Below, piece by piece: positions 10,493 through 47,324 of a stretch of DNA of 47,324 bases. The translations under genes and the position numbers were made by a program. The first letter of the stretch is position 1; each line of letters begins with the position of its first letter. The notes beneath the pieces are model-generated. The model worked only from the letters and a program-made list of their open reading frames with translations, was not told where the DNA came from and searched no databases. Origin of the DNA: Spirochaetota bacterium (GTDB lineage Bacteria > Spirochaetota > UBA4802 > UBA5550); assembly GCA_025457915.1 (NCBI GenBank), contig JALOTL010000023.1, forward strand, positions 1 through 47,324, given 5' to 3'.

Positions 10493-10556
10493 TTTATAAG
10501 GGGTTTCTCCTTTTTCGTATGCCAGACAGGTTAGAAAATTTGGCGGTAATTACAAG

Positions 10557-10574
10557 CAGATTTTTTGAAATCTG
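10557..10574. repeat. Inverted repeat in the divergent TetR/dehydrogenase spacer
   Basis: CAGATTT (10557-10563) and AAATCTG (10568-10574) surround TTTG; the stem extends outward with one G-U pair. The T run is in the loop, not after the stem, so it is not a terminator. It could be a regulator site or an RNA hairpin. Confidence 0.35.
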
Positions 10575-10585
10575 TTTGACATATC

Positions 10586-10596
10586 GAACAGTGTTC
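10586..10596. promoter_or_regulatory. Possible TetR operator
   Basis: GAACA-G-TGTTC is a perfect odd-centred inverted repeat, placed five bases after a TTGACA box (10576-10581) that could serve the dehydrogenase operon. It lies between the regulator and the genes it is divergent from, where TetR proteins usually bind. No sequence near 10600 is a good -10 box, so the promoter itself is less sure. Confidence 0.45.
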
Positions 10597-10641
10597 AGTC
10601 AATTGATTTTAGTTCAATATTTTTTACCTGCGAGGTTGATC

Positions 10642-12348
10642 ATGATCCTACTTAATCCACACAAGCATTTGAGAAAATACCCGGACGAAAAGTCCAGGCA
10701 GATAATGCTGAAGACGATAGAGTTTTTCGAGAAAAAGGGACTGAAGCAGATAAAGAAGGACTGGCACGAAAAGAAATGGAATTATGATTTCGTCGAATTC
10801 CTGAAGGAAAACCAGGTTTTCGCCACCCTGATGACGCCGTCGGGCTACGGCGCCCCGGATTCAAGGTGGGACACCTACAGGAACAACGAATTTTCCGAGA
10901 TAACCGGATTTTACGGCGTCACCTACTGGTACACATGGCAGGTATCGATGCTCGGCCTCTGCCCCATATGGAACGGAAGCAACGAGGAGGTCAAGCACAG
11001 GACCGCCAAGCTTTTACAGGAAGGCGGGGTTTTCGCCTTCGGCCTTTCGGAGAAGGAGCACGGCGCGGACATATACTCGAGCGACATGATGCTGTATCCC
11101 AATCCCGACGGCACCTACAGGGCGAACGGCGACAAGTACTATATAGGAAACGGGAACGAGGCGGCGCTCGCCTCCACATTCGCCAAGATGGCGGACACGG
11201 GTGATTACGTGTTCTTCGTCGTCAACTCCAAGCACCCCAAGTACGAGTGCATCAGGAACGTGGTCAACGAGCAGAACTACGTCGCTGAATACGCGCTCCA
11301 TGACTATCCCATAACCGACGCCGATATCACCGAGAAGGGCCAGAAGGCCTGGGACGACATGCTGAACACCATTAACGTCTGCAAGTTCAACCTCGGATGG
11401 GGCGCGATCGGGCTCTGCACCCACTCCCTGTACGAATCGATCGACCACGCAGCGAACAGGAACGTATACGGGAAATTCGTGACTGACTTCCCGCACGTAA
11501 AGAGGCTCTTCATGGATTCCTACTGCAAGCTGGTGGCCATGAAGCTCTTCGCAGAGAGGGCCTCGGACTACATGAGGTCCGCAAGCGAGGAGGACAGGCG
11601 TTATCTCCTGTTCAATCCCATGGTAAAGATGAAGGTCACCAGGGAGGGCGAGGAGGTCATGAACCTTCTTCACGATATCATCGCGGCCAAGGGCTTCGAG
11701 AACGAGCCCTTCTTCGAAATAGCCAAGCACGAACTGCCCATGCTGCCGAAGCTCGAGGGAACGGTTCACGTCAACATGGCGCTCATAGTCAAGTTCATGC
11801 CGAACTACTTCTTCAACCCGAAGGCGTACGACGAGGTCCCCAGGAGGGACGATCCGGCCAACGACGCCTACCTTTTCAGGCAGGGGCCGACCAAGGGGCT
11901 GGGCAAGATCCAGTTCCACGATTACAACATAGCCTACAACAGCGTTGACCTTCCGAACGTCAATATCTTCAAGGAGCAGATCAAGCTCTTCAAGGATTTC
12001 CTGGCGAAGGCCTCGCCGGACAAGGGGCAGTCGGAGGACATAGATTACCTCCTGGCCCTGGGCGAGATACTCACCCTGGTGGCCTACGGCCAGCTGATCA
12101 TCGAGAGCAGGAAGTATTTCAAGGTCGAGGACGACCTTCTCGAGGAGATATTCGATTTCATGGTAAGGGATATGTCAAAATACGCCCTCAACATCCACAT
12201 GAAGCCGTCCAACTCCGACAGGCAGAAGGAGCTGGCACTGAAGATAATAAAGACGCCGATCCCGAACCCGCAGCGCTTCGAAAAAATATACAGGGAACAG
12301 GTATACGCACTGAAGGGCGCCTACAAGATGAGGGACCAGAATATCTAA
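10642..12348 (+). CDS. Acyl-CoA dehydrogenase, tandem paralogue 1
   Basis: Start ATG 10642 (GAGG upstream) is chosen by alignment with the next gene, which begins the same way (ILLNP); both then give 568 residues. The fold of acyl-CoA dehydrogenases is shown by FGLSEKEHGAD (133-143), which stands where most relatives have the flavin-side TEPxxGSD, and by LEGTVHVN (371-378), where Glu372 matches the catalytic glutamate of YEGTxG in standard members. These enzymes oxidise acyl-CoA to 2-enoyl-CoA and pass electrons to ETF, in the cytoplasm. The chain length specificity is not readable. The operon is divergent from a TetR gene, which may control it. The wording of both motifs places the pair in a side branch of the family. 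Confidence 0.85.
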   Translation: MILLNPHKHLRKYPDEKSRQIMLKTIEFFEKKGLKQIKKDWHEKKWNYDFVEFLKENQVFATLMTPSGYGAPDSRWDTYRNNEFSEITGFYGVTYWYTWQVSMLGLCPIWNGSNEEVKHRTAKLLQEGGVFAFGLSEKEHGADIYSSDMMLYPNPDGTYRANGDKYYIGNGNEAALASTFAKMADTGDYVFFVVNSKHPKYECIRNVVNEQNYVAEYALHDYPITDADITEKGQKAWDDMLNTINVCKFNLGWGAIGLCTHSLYESIDHAANRNVYGKFVTDFPHVKRLFMDSYCKLVAMKLFAERASDYMRSASEEDRRYLLFNPMVKMKVTREGEEVMNLLHDIIAAKGFENEPFFEIAKHELPMLPKLEGTVHVNMALIVKFMPNYFFNPKAYDEVPRRDDPANDAYLFRQGPTKGLGKIQFHDYNIAYNSVDLPNVNIFKEQIKLFKDFLAKASPDKGQSEDIDYLLALGEILTLVAYGQLIIESRKYFKVEDDLLEEIFDFMVRDMSKYALNIHMKPSNSDRQKELALKIIKTPIPNPQRFEKIYREQVYALKGAYKMRDQNI

Positions 12349-12357
12349 TGAATTTCG

Positions 12358-12377
12358 GGCGGGGTAAAGGCCCCGCC
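12358..12377 (+). repeat. Hairpin between the two dehydrogenase genes
   Basis: GGCGGGG (12358-12364) and CCCCGCC (12371-12377) form a seven-base stem with a six-base loop. No T run follows, so it is unlikely to stop transcription; it could be a processing or mRNA-stability element that sets the ratio of the two products. A strong AGGAGG follows at 12391. Confidence 0.5.
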
Positions 12378-12405
12378 TTCCGCTTAAAAAAGGAGGCTGA
12401 ATGAA

Positions 12406-14112
12406 ATGGAAAAGATACTGCTGAATCCAAAAGAACTGGTCGCGAAGCATGCCGACGAGGAGACCAGGCAGATCATGCTGAAGACCATCGATTTCTTCGA
12501 GGGCCGCGGTCTGAAGAAGATGAAGGATGATTTTCACGAGTGCAGGTGGTACACCGAGTTCCTGGATTTCATGAAGGAAAACCAGATAATGTCGAAGCTC
12601 CTCACCCCGGCAGGCGTGGGAAGCGCCTCTGCGCGCTGGGACACATCGCGCATCACCGATTTCGCCGAAATCCTCGGCTTCTACGGTCTCACCTACTGGT
12701 ACACCTTCCAGGTGAGCGCCCTGGGACTGGGACCGATCTTTCTGGGGTCCAACGCCGAGGCCAAGCAGAAGGCGGCGAAACTGCTGAAGGAGGGCGCCAT
12801 CTTCGCATTCGGTCTCTCCGAGAAGGAGCACGGGGCGGACATATACTCAAGCGACATGATGCTCTATCCGAACAACGACGGCACATACAGGGCCAACGGC
12901 GACAAGTACTATATAGGCAACGGCAACGAGGCCGCGATGGTGTCCACCTTCGGCAAGGTGGCGGACAGCAATGATTACGTCTTCTTCGCCGTAGACTCAA
13001 AGCACCCGAAATACGAGTGCGTGAAAAACGTCATAAACAACCAGGACTACGTGGCCGAATACGCACTGCATGATTATCCCATAACGGAAGCGGACATCCT
13101 GGAGCGCGGCCAGAAGGCCTGGGACGATATGCTGAATACCATCAACATATGCAAGTTCAACCTGGGCTGGGGTTCGATCGGCATCTGCGAGCACGCCTTC
13201 TACGAGTCGATAAACCACGCGGCGCACCGCAATCTTTTCGGCAGCTTCGTGACCGACTTCACCCATATCCGGCAGCTTTTCATGGACGCCTACTGCAGGC
13301 TCGTGGCGATGAAGCTCTTCGCGCTCAGGGCGACTGACTACATGAGGTCCGCGAACGAGAACGACAAGCGCTACCTGCTGTACAATCCCATGGTGAAGAT
13401 GAAGGTCTCCACGCAGGGAGAGGAAGTCATCAACCTCCTGTGGGACGTGATAGCGGCCAAGGGCTTCGAGAAGGACACCTACTTCGAGAACGCGGCGACC
13501 GACATAAGGGCCCTGCCGAAGCTCGAGGGCACCGTCCACGTGAACATGGCCCTGATAATAAAATTCATGCCGAACTACTTCTTCAACCCGGCGAAGTACC
13601 CGGAGGTGCCGCAGCGCCGCGACGCCGCAAACGACGACTTCCTGTTCAACCAGGGCCCCACGAAGGGGCTGGGCAAGCTCCAGTTCCATGACTACAACAT
13701 CGCCTACAATTCCGTCGACATTCCAAACGTGAACGTTTTCAAGGAGCAGATCGCTTCTTTCAAGGAATTCATGGTGGTGTCCATGGAATCGCTGAAGGAG
13801 CAGTCGAACGACATCGACTTCCTGCTAAACGTCGGGGAGCTCTTTACGCTCGTGGCGTACGGCCAGCTCATCCTGGAAAACAAGAAAATCTACGGGGTTT
13901 CGGACGAGCTCATCGACCAGATATTCGATTTCATGGTGAGGGACATGTCGAAATTCGCGCTAATCATCTACACGAAGCCGATAACGACTGAAAAACAGCA
14001 GGCGTCGTGTCTGAAGATGCTCAAGAGACCGGTGGTGAACAGGGAAAGATACGAAAAGATACTGAAAGAGAACGTATACTCGCTGACCGACAAGTACAAG
14101 ATGAACGACTGA
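12406..14112 (+). CDS. Acyl-CoA dehydrogenase, tandem paralogue 2
   Basis: This 568-residue protein matches the preceding one along its whole length, with the same FGLSEKEHGAD and LEGTVHVN motifs (catalytic Glu374) and many long identical runs. The pair therefore arose by tandem duplication. The differences are concentrated near the N-terminus and the last 120 residues, which suggests different acyl chains or a heteromeric complex; that is inference. AGGAGG lies nine bases before the ATG at 12406. The gene is 57 bases after its sister, in one operon that ends at a strong terminator. Confidence 0.87.
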   Translation: MEKILLNPKELVAKHADEETRQIMLKTIDFFEGRGLKKMKDDFHECRWYTEFLDFMKENQIMSKLLTPAGVGSASARWDTSRITDFAEILGFYGLTYWYTFQVSALGLGPIFLGSNAEAKQKAAKLLKEGAIFAFGLSEKEHGADIYSSDMMLYPNNDGTYRANGDKYYIGNGNEAAMVSTFGKVADSNDYVFFAVDSKHPKYECVKNVINNQDYVAEYALHDYPITEADILERGQKAWDDMLNTINICKFNLGWGSIGICEHAFYESINHAAHRNLFGSFVTDFTHIRQLFMDAYCRLVAMKLFALRATDYMRSANENDKRYLLYNPMVKMKVSTQGEEVINLLWDVIAAKGFEKDTYFENAATDIRALPKLEGTVHVNMALIIKFMPNYFFNPAKYPEVPQRRDAANDDFLFNQGPTKGLGKLQFHDYNIAYNSVDIPNVNVFKEQIASFKEFMVVSMESLKEQSNDIDFLLNVGELFTLVAYGQLILENKKIYGVSDELIDQIFDFMVRDMSKFALIIYTKPITTEKQQASCLKMLKRPVVNRERYEKILKENVYSLTDKYKMND

Positions 14113-23173: not shown

Positions 23174-23323
23174 AAAGCCCGCCCTGAGCTGAAATTGATT
23201 TTAAAGTTGAGGCCCTGGATTTGATAATGTCAATAAAAATATTGCCGGGTGGTTAACCTTCTTAAAATTTATATTATTTTTAAGGGGAAGACACACGAAA
23301 ATCAAAAGGTAGGCTCCAAATTC

Positions 23324-24358
23324 ATGCTTGATAAAATATTTAAAAAAAGAAGAAGCTCCGTGTATATCGCGGAGATAGGTCTCAACCACAACGGCAGCTA
23401 CGAACTTGCCAGCAAAATGATAGGTTCCGCCGCAGGGGCCGGGGCGGACGCGGTAAAATTCCAGGTATTCGTGCCTGAAAAGATGAACTCGGTCTATACC
23501 ACCAGCCTGCTTGAACGCGGGACCGACGATACGCCCGACCGAAGCCAGCTGGATTTTCTCGGCAGGTTCGTGCTGAAGGGTGCGGAATACGCGGGCCTCA
23601 AAGCCCGGGCGGATGAATGCGGCGTCGTGTTCTTCTCGTCGGTCTTCGACGAAGAATCTTTCCAATTAATGGAATCCCTGGGAGCTCCTCTTTACAAGAT
23701 CGCTTCGTCCGAGGTGACCAATCATCCCCTTATAGAAAGGGTCGCGGCCACGGGGAAGCCGGTCATCATGTCCACCGGCATTTGCACGGAAGGTGAAATT
23801 TCATCGGCCGTCGAAATAATAAGGGATCGCGGTGGCGCCGGGCCCGTGCTCATGCACTGCGTTTCCCTTTATCCCACGTCGCCTGAATTCGCCAATCTTT
23901 CCAGGATAAGGACACTGGCTGACAGGTTCGGGCTGGAAGTCGGTTTTTCAGACCATACGGCGGGCACGTTCGCCTGTTCCCTGGCCGCGGCAACGGGGGC
24001 CAGGCTGTTCGAAAAACATTTTACTGTTGACAGATTTCATGACTGTCCGGATAAAGATGTATCCCTCGGCCCGGAAGAATTCTCTTCAATGATCGATCAG
24101 GTGGAAAAGGCCGTTTCGATGATGGGGGATGGATCCATATCATCGGGCAGTCCCGAGAATGGCACCGCAAGGGCGGCCAGGAGGAGCCTTTTCGCCGCCA
24201 GGAATATTCCTGCAGGGAATGTGATCGGGCGGGACGACCTGATCGCCCTCAGGCCGGGAACCGGCATACCGGTCATCCGAATGGGGGATGTGCTCGGGAA
24301 AAGGGCGGCCCTGGATATAAAAAAGGAACGCATCATCAAATTAGAATACCTGGAATGA
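23324..24358 (+). CDS. neuB: NeuB-family nonulosonic acid synthase
   Basis: ATG 23324 gives 344 residues, the family norm; the frame is open back to 23249 but that part aligns with nothing. Motifs: YIAEIGLNHNGS (strand 1), AVKFQ, IASSEVTNHPLI, VIMSTGI, and the metal-site GFSDHT. The last 60 residues are the antifreeze-like SAF domain (AARNIPAGNVIGRDDLIALRPG). Such enzymes condense phosphoenolpyruvate with a hexosamine to make sialic, legionaminic or pseudaminic acid; which one is not certain. Products decorate surface glycans or flagellins. A coupled lipoprotein and a polysaccharide deacetylase follow. No other neu/pse genes are in the window. Confidence 0.88.
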   Translation: MLDKIFKKRRSSVYIAEIGLNHNGSYELASKMIGSAAGAGADAVKFQVFVPEKMNSVYTTSLLERGTDDTPDRSQLDFLGRFVLKGAEYAGLKARADECGVVFFSSVFDEESFQLMESLGAPLYKIASSEVTNHPLIERVAATGKPVIMSTGICTEGEISSAVEIIRDRGGAGPVLMHCVSLYPTSPEFANLSRIRTLADRFGLEVGFSDHTAGTFACSLAAATGARLFEKHFTVDRFHDCPDKDVSLGPEEFSSMIDQVEKAVSMMGDGSISSGSPENGTARAARRSLFAARNIPAGNVIGRDDLIALRPGTGIPVIRMGDVLGKRAALDIKKERIIKLEYLE

Positions 24359-36703: not shown

Positions 36704-36752
36704 GCGACACGGCATGGGTCACCGGTCATTTCATTTATTTCAGAGGTGCTTT

Positions 36753-37589
36753 ATGATGGGCAAAATCGGCATTCTTTCGGCGCTGTTGATTCTTTTTTCT
36801 TATTGCGGATACCTGCAACCCGAACTGCTGGCGGAGAAAAAACCTTCGGAAACGGACTACTGCGTGGAATGCCACAAGGGGCTTTCCGGTTCGCTCAAGA
36901 CGGCAGTCGATGACTGGAAGAAGAGCCGGCACTCGAAGATAGGCACCTGCAACATATGCCACCAGGGCAACTCCGGGATAAATGATAAAAGGCAGGCAAA
37001 GGCCCCCGCTTCCGGTTATATAGGAAGGCCCGACAGGCGCATGAACATAGATTTTTGCGGGAGGGGAGGCTGCCATTCGGAACATATAAACAACTTTAAA
37101 ATCGGACCGCATTACAAGATCATGCTCAGGGACGGCAAACCGGACTGCTTGAGCTGTCACGGTTTTCACAGGATTGAAATGCCTTCATCGGTTATAATAA
37201 AGGAAACAGCCTGCATAAAATGCCATTCCAGGGAGGATTTCGGCAATTTCACCATGATTCTCGGCAACATGGAAAAAGGCATGGAGAAGGTGAGCGAAAA
37301 CATTGATTACCTGAAATCAAAAAGCATCGATGTCGTTCCGTACCAGAAAAGATACGTGCAATCGAAGGTATTCTTGAACCAGTTCGTGCATTCCATGTCC
37401 AAGGAGGACATTAAATCGACGAGAAAGATAATAGAGCTTCAGATCGAAAACCTTTCAAGGGAGACAAGCGGCCTTTATTCGCTGACAAAAAGGCTCGATA
37501 TATTTTATATTATCATAGTTTCGTTCGGCCTGATCGTCATAGCGGGCATTTCAATATATACGTTCCTGACCTACATGCAGAGAAAGTGA
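36753..37589 (+). CDS. Pentahaem c-type cytochrome, membrane-anchored
   Basis: ATG 36753 has GAGG seven to eight bases upstream; the earlier in-frame ATG 36714 does not. The 278-residue product has a signal sequence (1-27), then haem-binding CxxCH at 37-41, 66-70, 132-136 and 154-158, and one C-x4-CH at 102-108, a spacing seen in some cytochrome c3-type proteins. A helical section of about 80 residues and one membrane helix (about 247-270) follow, so the haems are periplasmic and tethered by the C-terminus. It should carry electrons; donor and acceptor are unknown. Its place in an operon for envelope lipids and protein sorting is unexpected. Confidence 0.82.
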   Translation: MMGKIGILSALLILFSYCGYLQPELLAEKKPSETDYCVECHKGLSGSLKTAVDDWKKSRHSKIGTCNICHQGNSGINDKRQAKAPASGYIGRPDRRMNIDFCGRGGCHSEHINNFKIGPHYKIMLRDGKPDCLSCHGFHRIEMPSSVIIKETACIKCHSREDFGNFTMILGNMEKGMEKVSENIDYLKSKSIDVVPYQKRYVQSKVFLNQFVHSMSKEDIKSTRKIIELQIENLSRETSGLYSLTKRLDIFYIIIVSFGLIVIAGISIYTFLTYMQRK

Positions 37590-42671: not shown

Positions 42672-42700
42672 AAAAGGCGGCCGAATGGCCGCCTTTTTTT
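42672..42700. terminator. Bidirectional terminator
   Basis: AAAAGGCGGCC (42672-42682) and GGCCGCCTTTT (42687-42697) are perfect complements around four bases, followed by T to 42700. It serves the dehydrogenase gene and, with the A tract as T on the other strand, the convergent cob operon. Confidence 0.9.
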
Positions 42701-43796: not shown

Positions 43797-44552
43797 TCAG
43801 CTACCGAATGAGTTTTTAAGGATTTTTACCGATTCTTCCAGATCTTGGTATGAATACACCTCGATGATCATTATACCCGTGTAGCCGCCGAGAAAGGTTA
43901 CGATTTTTTTAATGATGGCCGGATTTACGGCTCGGAGCGAAATATGGTCCCTGGCTCCGTCAAAACCGTGAAGGTGGACAACCCTGATCCTGTCGCCGAA
44001 AATGGCCAGGAAACCGTTCATGTCATGGCCCTTCATGTAAATGTGCCCTATGTCCATGCAGATTCCGAATCCGTGCCGGGCGAGCGGTCCGCTTATGGAT
44101 AGAAGGTCGAAACCAGTGTTTTCCACAAGGACCCTCCCGTACGGGTCCATCCGTCTTATCATCCCGAGGACATCATCCAGCCGGGCGCTGTCGCATGCTC
44201 CGTCGAGGTGCAGAATGAAATATTCCGGTTTGATGTCGGCGGTCGCGGAAATTATGCTGTTGATTATCCCGGCCGATTTTTCAAATTCGGCGGCGGATGA
44301 AAACAGGTCAAGGTTGATGGGCAGATGGATTATGTATGATATATTGTTTGAATTTTTTATTTCCGCCAGGCGTTTAATTATGCCGGCCGACATAACGTCA
44401 TCCAGCCCGTTTCTGTCATAGAAAAGAAGCTGTATGACGTCGAAACTGTCCTTGAGCAATTCCACGTTCGCGGTCAGGTTGTCGTTCATGAAGGGAAAAA
44501 TATAGGATGTCGTTCCCGATCTGAAATGAAATGATTTCCTGCAGTTTTCCAA
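43797..44552 (-). CDS. cbiR: CbiR-like cobamide hydrolase (AP-endonuclease-2 TIM barrel)
   Basis: The 251-residue TIM-barrel protein of the xylose isomerase/AP endonuclease 2 superfamily opens with RSGTTSYIFP and has candidate metal-binding residues at strand ends: His76 (IIHLPIN), His115 (LHLDG), Glu144 (VENTG), Asp167 and His170 (MDIGH), His193/195 (VHLHG), His203, and Glu231 (IEVYS). CbiR is a published remodelling enzyme from Akkermansia that removes the nucleotide loop of cobamides. This opening and its place among cobU/S and cobT fit that family. It would let the cell rebuild imported cobamides. The start is TTG 44552 (no in-frame ATG until residue 22). Assignment rests on recalled family features and context. 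Confidence 0.78.
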   Translation of the reverse strand: MENCRKSFHFRSGTTSYIFPFMNDNLTANVELLKDSFDVIQLLFYDRNGLDDVMSAGIIKRLAEIKNSNNISYIIHLPINLDLFSSAAEFEKSAGIINSIISATADIKPEYFILHLDGACDSARLDDVLGMIRRMDPYGRVLVENTGFDLLSISGPLARHGFGICMDIGHIYMKGHDMNGFLAIFGDRIRVVHLHGFDGARDHISLRAVNPAIIKKIVTFLGGYTGIMIIEVYSYQDLEESVKILKNSFGS

Positions 44553-44565
44553 GACGGCGGCCGTC

Positions 44566-45927
44566 CTATATTATGGCCGCGGGGAATGCAACGGCTGCGT
44601 AAAGGATAAGCTCTGCGGTCTCGCATGCGGCACCAAGAACATCGCCGGTCGCCCCGCCTATTTTTTTCCGGGATAAGAGGATCATGCAGACCGAAGCCGC
44701 AAGGGTCAGACAGATGAATGCGGCAAGCGTTTCAGCCGTTGACGCATATCCTGCGGTTAAATAAAGCGGTGCGCCTGCCGCGGCAATGCATATCATGGTC
44801 GAAGACGCTATGATCGCGGGTGATGTCCTTCCTATCATCGCGGCTCCGAGCCCGATTTTTTTCGGGTAACTGGAGAAGGCGGAAACCAGGACCATGGAGT
44901 ATCTTGAAAATACCGGAACGGCCAGCAGGAGGGCCGCCGTTTCCTGGCTGCCCGAGATTTTTTTCAGCATGATGAATTTCGCGATGAGGTATATGCACCC
45001 GACCGCGAGTGCGAAACTGCCGATCCTGCTGTCCTTCATTATTTCAAGCCGCCCGGACGGACCCCTGTCGGCCAGAAACGCGTCGGCCGTGTCGCAGAGC
45101 CCGTCGAAATGGAAGAACCCGTTCAGGAGGTATGGAACCAGCAGCAGGACCAGTGCTGTTATTTCGATGTCGGCCGATAAACGCGCCATTATCAGCCAGG
45201 CTGAATAGAGGACAAAACCGTATGCCAGTCCCACCAGCGGAAAGAAGGCGAGGGAGCGCATCAATTCGTCTTCAGCTTTATCCCGCGGTACCGGGTGCGG
45301 CACCGGGATCCTGGAAAGCAATCCGATCGATATCAGGAGGGAGTTGAATATCGACTTCATTTTATTCTCATGGGTATCCCGGAAACCAAAGAAATACACC
45401 CCGCCGGCATCACCCGCTAGTTTCATATTGATCCTGCCCTGCGTGTCCCTGAAATTTCTCCCGAGGGCCGTGTGGGGAACTATTCCCAGGCCGACTTCGT
45501 TCGAAACGACTATAAGCGTTTTGTCATTTTTCCCGACTGATGTGAACAACCCTGTAATTTTCAGGAGCTTTTCAAATGCTATTTTTTCGGCGGTCTTTTC
45601 ACCGTTTTTGTAAAAAATATTTCCAAGCCACGTGGTGAGGCATTCGAGAACGAAAACTGAATAACCGGAATGAATTTTTTCCAGCAGCGTATCGACTTCC
45701 ACGGGCTCCTCGAAGGTTTTGAACCCCACGGCCCGCTGTTTAATGTGCTCCTCTATCCTTCTTTCAAATTCAGGGTCGCTCCTTTCCCCGGTCGCGACGA
45801 ACGCGGCCGGGTTGCGGGTTCCCCGTGCCGAATTTATTTCCACCGCGAGATTTTCCGCGAAAGAGCTTTTCCCGGATCTTGCGCCGCCGAGGACGAGGAT
45901 TATCCCGCTTTCATTTGTATCCATCAT
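44566..45927 (-). CDS. cobU-cobS: CobU-CobS fusion: adenosylcobinamide kinase/guanylyltransferase and cobalamin synthase
   Basis: One 453-residue frame holds two enzymes. Residues 1-183 are CobU: P-loop GGARSGKS (14-21), His61 in EEHIKQR (matching the guanylylated His of Salmonella CobU), SNEVGLGIVP, and FRDTQGRIN. After a short linker (184-192) residues 193-453 form CobS, a polytopic membrane protein with the signature HFDGLCDTADAF (274-285) and LSRIPVP at its start. CobU phosphorylates and activates adenosylcobinamide with GTP; CobS adds the alpha-ribazole. Fusing them would pass the unstable GDP-cobinamide directly to the membrane enzyme. The ATG overlaps the TonB receptor stop by four bases (ATGA). 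CobC phosphatase is not in view. Confidence 0.93.
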   Translation of the reverse strand: MMDTNESGIILVLGGARSGKSSFAENLAVEINSARGTRNPAAFVATGERSDPEFERRIEEHIKQRAVGFKTFEEPVEVDTLLEKIHSGYSVFVLECLTTWLGNIFYKNGEKTAEKIAFEKLLKITGLFTSVGKNDKTLIVVSNEVGLGIVPHTALGRNFRDTQGRINMKLAGDAGGVYFFGFRDTHENKMKSIFNSLLISIGLLSRIPVPHPVPRDKAEDELMRSLAFFPLVGLAYGFVLYSAWLIMARLSADIEITALVLLLVPYLLNGFFHFDGLCDTADAFLADRGPSGRLEIMKDSRIGSFALAVGCIYLIAKFIMLKKISGSQETAALLLAVPVFSRYSMVLVSAFSSYPKKIGLGAAMIGRTSPAIIASSTMICIAAAGAPLYLTAGYASTAETLAAFICLTLAASVCMILLSRKKIGGATGDVLGAACETAELILYAAVAFPAAII

Positions 45928-47324
45928 AATACCAGCTTCAGGCCTCCGTAAAATGACCTTTCCGGCGTCTTGTATCCGCGGACCTCCTCGTAATTTGCAT
46001 TGAGGAGGTTTTCACACCTGATGAAGGCCTGAAGGTTATCTATTATCCAGTATGAAGCGGATGCGTCAAGCTTGTAATATGAATTGATGGGGGCAGACTG
46101 CGGAAAATATTTGAAGAGAAGGAGCTCCAGGGTTGAAAAATTATAATTATAGCCCGCGAATGTAAAAATTGAAAGGTCCATGCGCCTCCCGACATAGATG
46201 AATCCGAGGTTGATGTTGGCCTTTTTATCAAGGAAGGATATATTGAGGTTTGCTCCGACCTTGTGTTCCGGCCTCCTGAGAAGGGGACGGTTATTGTCCT
46301 TGTTTTTCGCTATCTGGTAGGTGTAGTTCGCTTCGAGCTTGAGGTCCTCGATCGGTTTGATGCTCAGCAGGCTTTCAACTCCCCTCGCGAAGGAGTTTGA
46401 ATTCCTGTACATGCCGTATTGTCCCAGGGTGAAATCGAAGAGTATCATCCTGTCCGTGTCGATCGAGAAATAATTGCACTCCAGATTGATTTTTTCCTTC
46501 CAGAGCGGCTGTTCTATCCCGGCATCCCAGCTCTTGCTTGATTCCGGTTTCAGGTATATGTTTCCGTACATGCTGTCGTATCTCTGGTAGAGGGAGGGGA
46601 TCTTGTATCCCGTGCTGAAGTTGCTTTTGATTCTTGTTTCCGTCATGGGAAGAATAAACGATCCGGAGGTGGAATAGGAAAGGTTTGACTTGTAGTGATC
46701 CGGTTCTGAATACCTTACGCCGGCGGTTATGAAAATCCTTTTCATTAACTTCAGGTGGTTCTGGAGATAGGCGGCTTTCTGGTAGTTCGTCTTGTCAATG
46801 CCGTAGCTGGAGTACATCGATGAGAACATCATGGTTGCGGCCTTGTCTTCTTCAATTTCGCCGCCGATCGAGATTTCGTCGACCTCGGCGATGATAAACC
46901 TGTTTTTCCATTCCGCCTTTCTCATTTTTCCCCTGAAAAACATGTCCGAATAAGAAGTGTCGAACATGTCGGGCAGGTCCCTGATTTTCCTTGACTGGTT
47001 CATGTATGAAAAGGTGAGCCTGGACTCCCACCAGCTGAACAGCGGGATCGCGTAATCAATGTTGGCGGCCATGAGGTCGCCTTCGGTTTTCTTGTAATGC
47101 TCGTCCACGTAGGGCAGGTAACCGTCCAGCCCGGCGGAGGAGTCATAGTATCTCATGGCGAAGGATATCCAGCTGTCCATGACGGTCCTGACTCCGAGTC
47201 TTGCCGAAAGGGTCGTGTTTTCATATGGGTCCCTTTCGTATCTCCCGGCGCAATGCTGGGGTTTGGATGACTTGCTGAAACCCCTCGAATCTATCCTTGA
47301 CGCCGCGAAGGAATAAAACGCTCC
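45924..47324 (-). CDS. TonB-dependent outer-membrane receptor (BtuB-like), 3' part
   Basis: The frame is open from the right edge to the stop at 45924, so about 466 residues of the C-terminal barrel are present and the plug and start are outside the window. An internal ATG at 47180 is not the true start. Beta strands repeat as aromatic-polar alternations (for example YNFSTLELLLFKYF, ENLLNANYEEVRGY), the latter being the closing phrase of TonB receptors before the last strand. The operon, with cobU-cobS, cbiR and cobT downstream, indicates corrinoids as the substrate; a B12 riboswitch could lie beyond the edge. The protein ends GGLKLVL, without the usual final Phe or Trp. Confidence 0.85.
   Translation of the reverse strand, partial: GAFYSFAASRIDSRGFSKSSKPQHCAGRYERDPYENTTLSARLGVRTVMDSWISFAMRYYDSSAGLDGYLPYVDEHYKKTEGDLMAANIDYAIPLFSWWESRLTFSYMNQSRKIRDLPDMFDTSYSDMFFRGKMRKAEWKNRFIIAEVDEISIGGEIEEDKAATMMFSSMYSSYGIDKTNYQKAAYLQNHLKLMKRIFITAGVRYSEPDHYKSNLSYSTSGSFILPMTETRIKSNFSTGYKIPSLYQRYDSMYGNIYLKPESSKSWDAGIEQPLWKEKINLECNYFSIDTDRMILFDFTLGQYGMYRNSNSFARGVESLLSIKPIEDLKLEANYTYQIAKNKDNNRPLLRRPEHKVGANLNISFLDKKANINLGFIYVGRRMDLSIFTFAGYNYNFSTLELLLFKYFPQSAPINSYYKLDASASYWIIDNLQAFIRCENLLNANYEEVRGYKTPERSFYGGLKLVL

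Follow-up and report, generated by a model that had tools for sequence, protein, structure and literature searches.

Described systems and the locus analysed

Cobamide remodelling by CbiR has been described in Akkermansia muciniphila. The enzyme (Amuc_1679) cuts cobamides to cobinamide-phosphate and alpha-ribazole whatever the lower ligand, a usable one included (PMC7733943). It is oxygen-sensitive and inhibited by EDTA, and with it E. coli can use a cobamide that is otherwise of no use to the cell (PMC7733943). It belongs to the AP endonuclease 2 superfamily and has conserved His, Asp and Glu residues, and its gene is clustered with cobT, cobS and cobU in an organism without corrin-ring synthesis (PMC7733943). 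CbiR homologues were reported from 22 phyla; cobamide genes adjoin 80% of the homologues, and transport genes 25% (PMC7733943). The amidohydrolase CbiZ likewise begins cobamide remodelling by removing the lower-ligand part. However, it is not related to CbiR and acts on the amide bond adjacent to the aminopropanol linker (PMC7733943), and therefore rebuilding needs CbiB.

In this study, a contig from an uncultured spirochaete was analysed. The window is the entire contig (C35; 47,324 bases) of a genome of 3.66 Mb in 50 contigs, which is 96% complete. Its cobamide genes resemble the Akkermansia locus in the superfamily and conserved residues of CbiR, in the neighbouring cob genes and in the apparent lack of corrin-ring synthesis. 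The Akkermansia locus differs in carrying cbiB and cobDQ as well, whereas no cbiB turned up in the genome of the window. In addition, cobU and cobS form one ORF in the window, and the operon begins with a TonB receptor gene, probably together with a riboswitch. From these genes, we consider it highly likely that a btuB-cobUS-cbiR-cobT operon, probably under an AdoCbl riboswitch, serves the remodelling of imported cobamides.

Operon structure

The transcription order on the minus strand is TonB receptor barrel, cobU-cobS, cbiR and cobT (Table 1). The receptor gene and cobU-cobS overlap by 4 nt, the gap between cobU-cobS and cbiR is 13 nt, and that between cbiR and cobT is 1 nt. The four genes form a tightly packed operon ending in a terminator hairpin. 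With its flanks, the hairpin gave a z of -4.8, and none of 200 shuffles was equally stable; it precedes a converging acyl-CoA dehydrogenase gene. Repeats around the operon occurred at chance level only. The original prediction placed import, lower-ligand removal, activation and rebuilding in one coupled operon. The tight packing of btuB, cobUS, cbiR and cobT agrees with this, but the adenosyltransferase is encoded elsewhere in the genome.

Table 1. Positions of the cobamide-related features in the window and on two other contigs (C31, C45) of the same genome
Feature	Position	Strand	Evidence
Terminator-like hairpin 3' of cobT, 11-bp stem ending in a U run	42672..42697	(-)	Folding vs shuffles
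cobT, lower-ligand base phosphoribosyltransferase, 351 aa	42740..43795	(-)	TIGR03160 410 bits vs 319.3; PF02277 408 bits
cbiR, predicted cobamide-remodelling phosphodiesterase, 251 aa, TTG start	43797..44552	(-)	NF041277 match
cobU-cobS fused ORF, 453 aa	44566..45927	(-)	PF02283 150 bits at 10-179; PF02654 165 bits at 201-443
btuB-type TonB-dependent receptor, 3' part (beta-barrel)	45924..47324	(-)	PF00593 102 bits; TIGR01779 positions 190-607
Open frame, 225 aa, very probably the missing receptor half	G000:C31:3-677	(-)	PF07715 (TonB plug) 99 bits; best model TIGR01779, positions 28-148
Predicted AdoCbl riboswitch	C31:689-815		RF01482 58.9 bits vs 50
BtuR/CobA-type adenosyltransferase (predicted)	C45:3242-3763		Above Pfam cut-off; slightly below TIGR00708 cut-off

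The 5' end of the receptor gene is missing from the window, as the contig stops there. At the start of contig C31, an open frame carrying a TonB plug domain runs off the contig edge, and this frame is very probably the missing half of the receptor. TIGR01779, the B12 receptor model, was the top NCBIfam model for both halves; their scores (106.8 and 102.2 bits) are far below the full-length cut-off, as expected of fragments. The stretch between the corresponding points of the receptor is about 114 nt in four relatives of the same family, and we therefore place C31 and C35 about 110 nt apart; on this comparison the two contigs most likely adjoin. From its family, the receptor is predicted to import cobamides or cobinamide.

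Upstream of the plug half, the covariance model of the AdoCbl riboswitch RF01482 scored above its cut-off, and a genome search with the related family RF00174 returned this place only. Same-family relatives also have RF01482 riboswitches beside btuB. Minimum-free-energy folding of the region was no better than that of shuffles (z -0.06), and it is the covariance model that supports the riboswitch call. Joined across the contig gap, the whole operon probably reads riboswitch-btuB-cobUS-cbiR-cobT.

Identity of the CbiR protein

The window protein scored 174.6 bits against the NCBIfam equivalog model for CbiR, NF041277 (cut-off 105), with residues 10-246 aligned to profile positions 1-248 of 249. 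At E <= 0.001 no other NCBIfam model matched it, and this includes the curated sugar-isomerase families. The Pfam family AP_endonuc_2 (PF01261) gave 33.7 bits against a cut-off of 31.1. In an alignment (A1) of 17 proteins including that of the window, all of which match the CbiR model, the TTG start lines up with ATG starts in several relatives, and H76, H115, E144, D167, H170, H193, H195, D202, H203 and E231 are invariant; these positions are numbered on the window protein. A1 is diverse, and no part of it was conserved well enough to scan genomes with; the narrower alignment A2 was used for the scan. A scan of viral contigs with the protein returned no relative.

The AlphaFold model of the protein is a TIM barrel (pLDDT 91.3, pTM 0.90), in which most of the invariant His, Asp and Glu residues lie at or just after the barrel strands. 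The closest solved folds were MJ1311 (PDB 3wqo; Z 23.4, rmsd 2.6, 22% identity over 235 residues), UlaE and endonuclease IV, and the fold is related to that of endonuclease IV and the sugar epimerases. These three proteins share the metal-binding TIM-barrel superfamily with the window protein, but none of them is described as acting on cobamides, and any known substrates of theirs are different ones.

In a tree that included E. coli members of the superfamily, UlaE, YcjR, Hyi and YgbM split from the CbiR group with a support of 99/98. Endonuclease IV, whose branch is very long, came out on the CbiR side, a position that is not to be read as a placement. Inside the CbiR group, the window protein grouped loosely with other spirochaete proteins (81/70). 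The tie to the characterised Akkermansia enzyme runs via the NCBIfam model rather than via the tree. The nearest homologue is only about 40% identical, and the nearest named relatives are 'Spirochaetes bacterium' MAGs. A CbiR of spirochaete type had been proposed for this locus; the model score, the barrel, the invariant residues, the tree and the named relatives all bear this out. By these comparisons the protein is a member of the CbiR family, with a catalytic activity predicted from homologues.

Distribution of CbiR in the phylum

Among 393 sampled genomes of this phylum, 35 had a protein above the CbiR cut-off. Twenty loci were examined in wider context (for one of them, L066, the CbiR position was taken from the 393-genome search), and cobU, cobS or cobT adjoins cbiR at 14 of them. 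Three loci (L053, L054 and L055, in genomes G053, G147 and G163) have the order cobU-cobS-cbiR and encode CbiR proteins 37-41% identical to that of the window. In L054, btuB stands immediately before cobU, which gives btuB-cobU-cobS-cbiR. All three differ from the window in that cobU and cobS are separate genes, and at L054 and L055 no cobT was found adjoining cbiR. The original prediction considered a spirochaete CbiR notable. Given the 22 phyla already published (PMC7733943), the 35 genomes and the 14 loci with cob genes, this is not supported. The locus is a sound, if fairly ordinary, instance of a route known from other bacteria; it supports the published view of CbiR remodelling as widespread and leaves the general picture unchanged.

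A plainer reading of the operon is corrinoid salvage, in which BtuB, CobUS and CobT complete imported cobinamide and the CbiR-like protein has another function, such as that of a sugar isomerase, or a minor accessory one. CobU, CobS, CobT and an adenosyltransferase are indeed enough for cobinamide salvage, and the activity of the window protein, so distant from its nearest homologue, is a prediction. However, the protein is 70 bits above the equivalog cut-off and matches no sugar-isomerase model, its gene is packed between cobUS and cobT, and cob genes are kept beside cbiR at most of the phylum loci examined. We regard salvage without remodelling as quite improbable.

Five loci from another genus of the same family (L049-L052 and L056) keep cbiR apart from the cob genes. 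The operon membership of cbiR thus varies within the family. Such loci, away from transport and cob genes, would suit a CbiR acting mainly in turnover or quality control, where damaged or wrong intracellular cobamides rather than fresh imports are recycled, and so would the indifference of the Akkermansia enzyme to the lower ligand, a usable one included (PMC7733943). In the window, cbiR shares an operon with a receptor and, probably, a riboswitch, which ties it to uptake, and a role mainly in turnover is very improbable here.

At four of these five loci, cbiR adjoins a gene for a predicted secreted, outer-membrane-like protein of about 300 aa; the one copy tested matched no Pfam or NCBIfam family. 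In these genomes the cob genes lie elsewhere, partly under riboswitches.

Cobamide capacity of the genome and proposed route

The cell evidently uses cobamides. The genome has 11 matches to B12-binding domains, among them one MetH-like protein and several of the B12-radical-SAM type. Family searches of the 96%-complete genome found no CbiC, no CbiB and no corrin-ring methylase, and control genomes behaved as expected in the corrin-ring and CbiB searches. Only two TP_methylase proteins are present: one is a HemD/uroporphyrinogen methyltransferase fusion, and the other, a 258-aa frame, is taken to be a putative RsmI. The cell appears to be unable to make the corrin ring. The lack of corrin-ring genes first read from the window alone therefore extends, as far as searched, to the rest of the genome, where such genes were to be looked for.

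No PduO-type adenosyltransferase was found in the genome, and the BtuR/CobA-type candidate on C45 is listed in Table 1. Its gene comes after larE, larB and larC with overlaps or gaps of a few nt (L048:3242-6555; G000:C45). The three lar genes are nickel-pincer cofactor genes, and the arrangement suggests a mixed cofactor operon.

Nitroreductases resembling BluB were not taken as BluB (best score 57.8 against a cut-off of 150), and the single ThiC-family protein was not taken as BzaB, as it scores as ThiC (608.9 against 410) and falls under the BzaB cut-off. Lower-ligand synthesis of the BluB or Bza type was thus not found in the genome, and therefore the cell would either scavenge the base or use adenine or another common purine.

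What was observed is which genes are present, in what order and how conserved, and these observations make cobamide remodelling, as originally proposed, the best reading of the gene set; each catalytic step of the following route is predicted from homologues. At low intracellular adenosylcobamide, the riboswitch would be permissive. BtuB would then import cobamides or cobinamide made by other microbes. CbiR would hydrolyse the nucleotide-loop phosphodiester of the imported cobamide at the metal-bound site of its TIM barrel and, by analogy with the Akkermansia enzyme, would yield (Ado)cobinamide-phosphate and an alpha-riboside. The CobU domain would convert cobinamide-phosphate to AdoCbi-GDP, and CobT would convert an available base to an alpha-ribotide. 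The CobS domain would couple AdoCbi-GDP and the alpha-ribotide to a cobamide for the MetH-like and B12-radical-SAM enzymes. The upper ligand would come from the BtuR-type adenosyltransferase encoded elsewhere.

Cobinamide-phosphate is a substrate of the CobU guanylyltransferase step, and CbiR, CobU, CobS, CobT and an adenosyltransferase would therefore suffice. As CbiB was not found, a route through cobyric acid, of the CbiZ type, could not be completed. A CbiR-type cut after the phosphate is, on this predicted route, the kind of remodelling that the gene set can finish. The locus would thus be a compact set of remodelling genes, carried by an uncultured spirochaete in whose genome no corrin-ring synthesis, CbiB or known lower-ligand synthesis was found. 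The prediction is that the cell needs its neighbours for the corrinoid, and perhaps also for the base.

The cobU-cobS fused ORF

The original prediction mentioned a fusion arrangement. We found that cbiR itself is unfused and that the fusion joins cobU with cobS. The CobU part (kinase/guanylyltransferase) extends to about residue 189, and the CobS part (cobamide-phosphate synthase) begins at M190. The junction reads GFRDTHENK-MKSIFNSLLIS and contains no stop codon. The compared relatives have cobU and cobS as two genes, which abut, overlap a little or are parted by a third gene, and in two genomes of the same family they occupy a shared frame broken by a single stop codon. Because the two genes adjoin in relatives, and because two genomes have such a one-stop frame, the fusion looks like the loss of a stop between neighbouring genes. 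The apparent fusion may also reflect an assembly error, or translation may start internally: codon 190 is still the ATG of CobS and has a GAG a few bases upstream, and a separate CobS could arise by initiation there.

Our literature search, which was not exhaustive, gave no paper evidently about a CobU-CobS fusion. In a plasmid search, which was not a survey of fusions, the CobU and CobS parts were separate among the matches listed. The fusion is the only mildly unusual element of the locus. One could imagine that it is a truly bifunctional membrane enzyme which acts with CbiR and BtuB to link uptake directly with remodelling. The imported cobamide would be cut, and cobinamide-phosphate would be handed through the fused protein. 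If true, this would explain how a futile cycle of cutting and rebuilding is avoided. We consider this reading unlikely.

Other features of the window

Three further places in the window were recorded. An ORF with several CxxCH motifs (36714-37589), a probable multihaem c-type cytochrome, had no NCBIfam match at E <= 1e-15, and neither did two adjoining large ORFs of 609 and 568 aa (10519-14112). The third (23249-24358) encodes a NeuB/PseI-like sialic or pseudaminic acid synthase that scored under both equivalog cut-offs.
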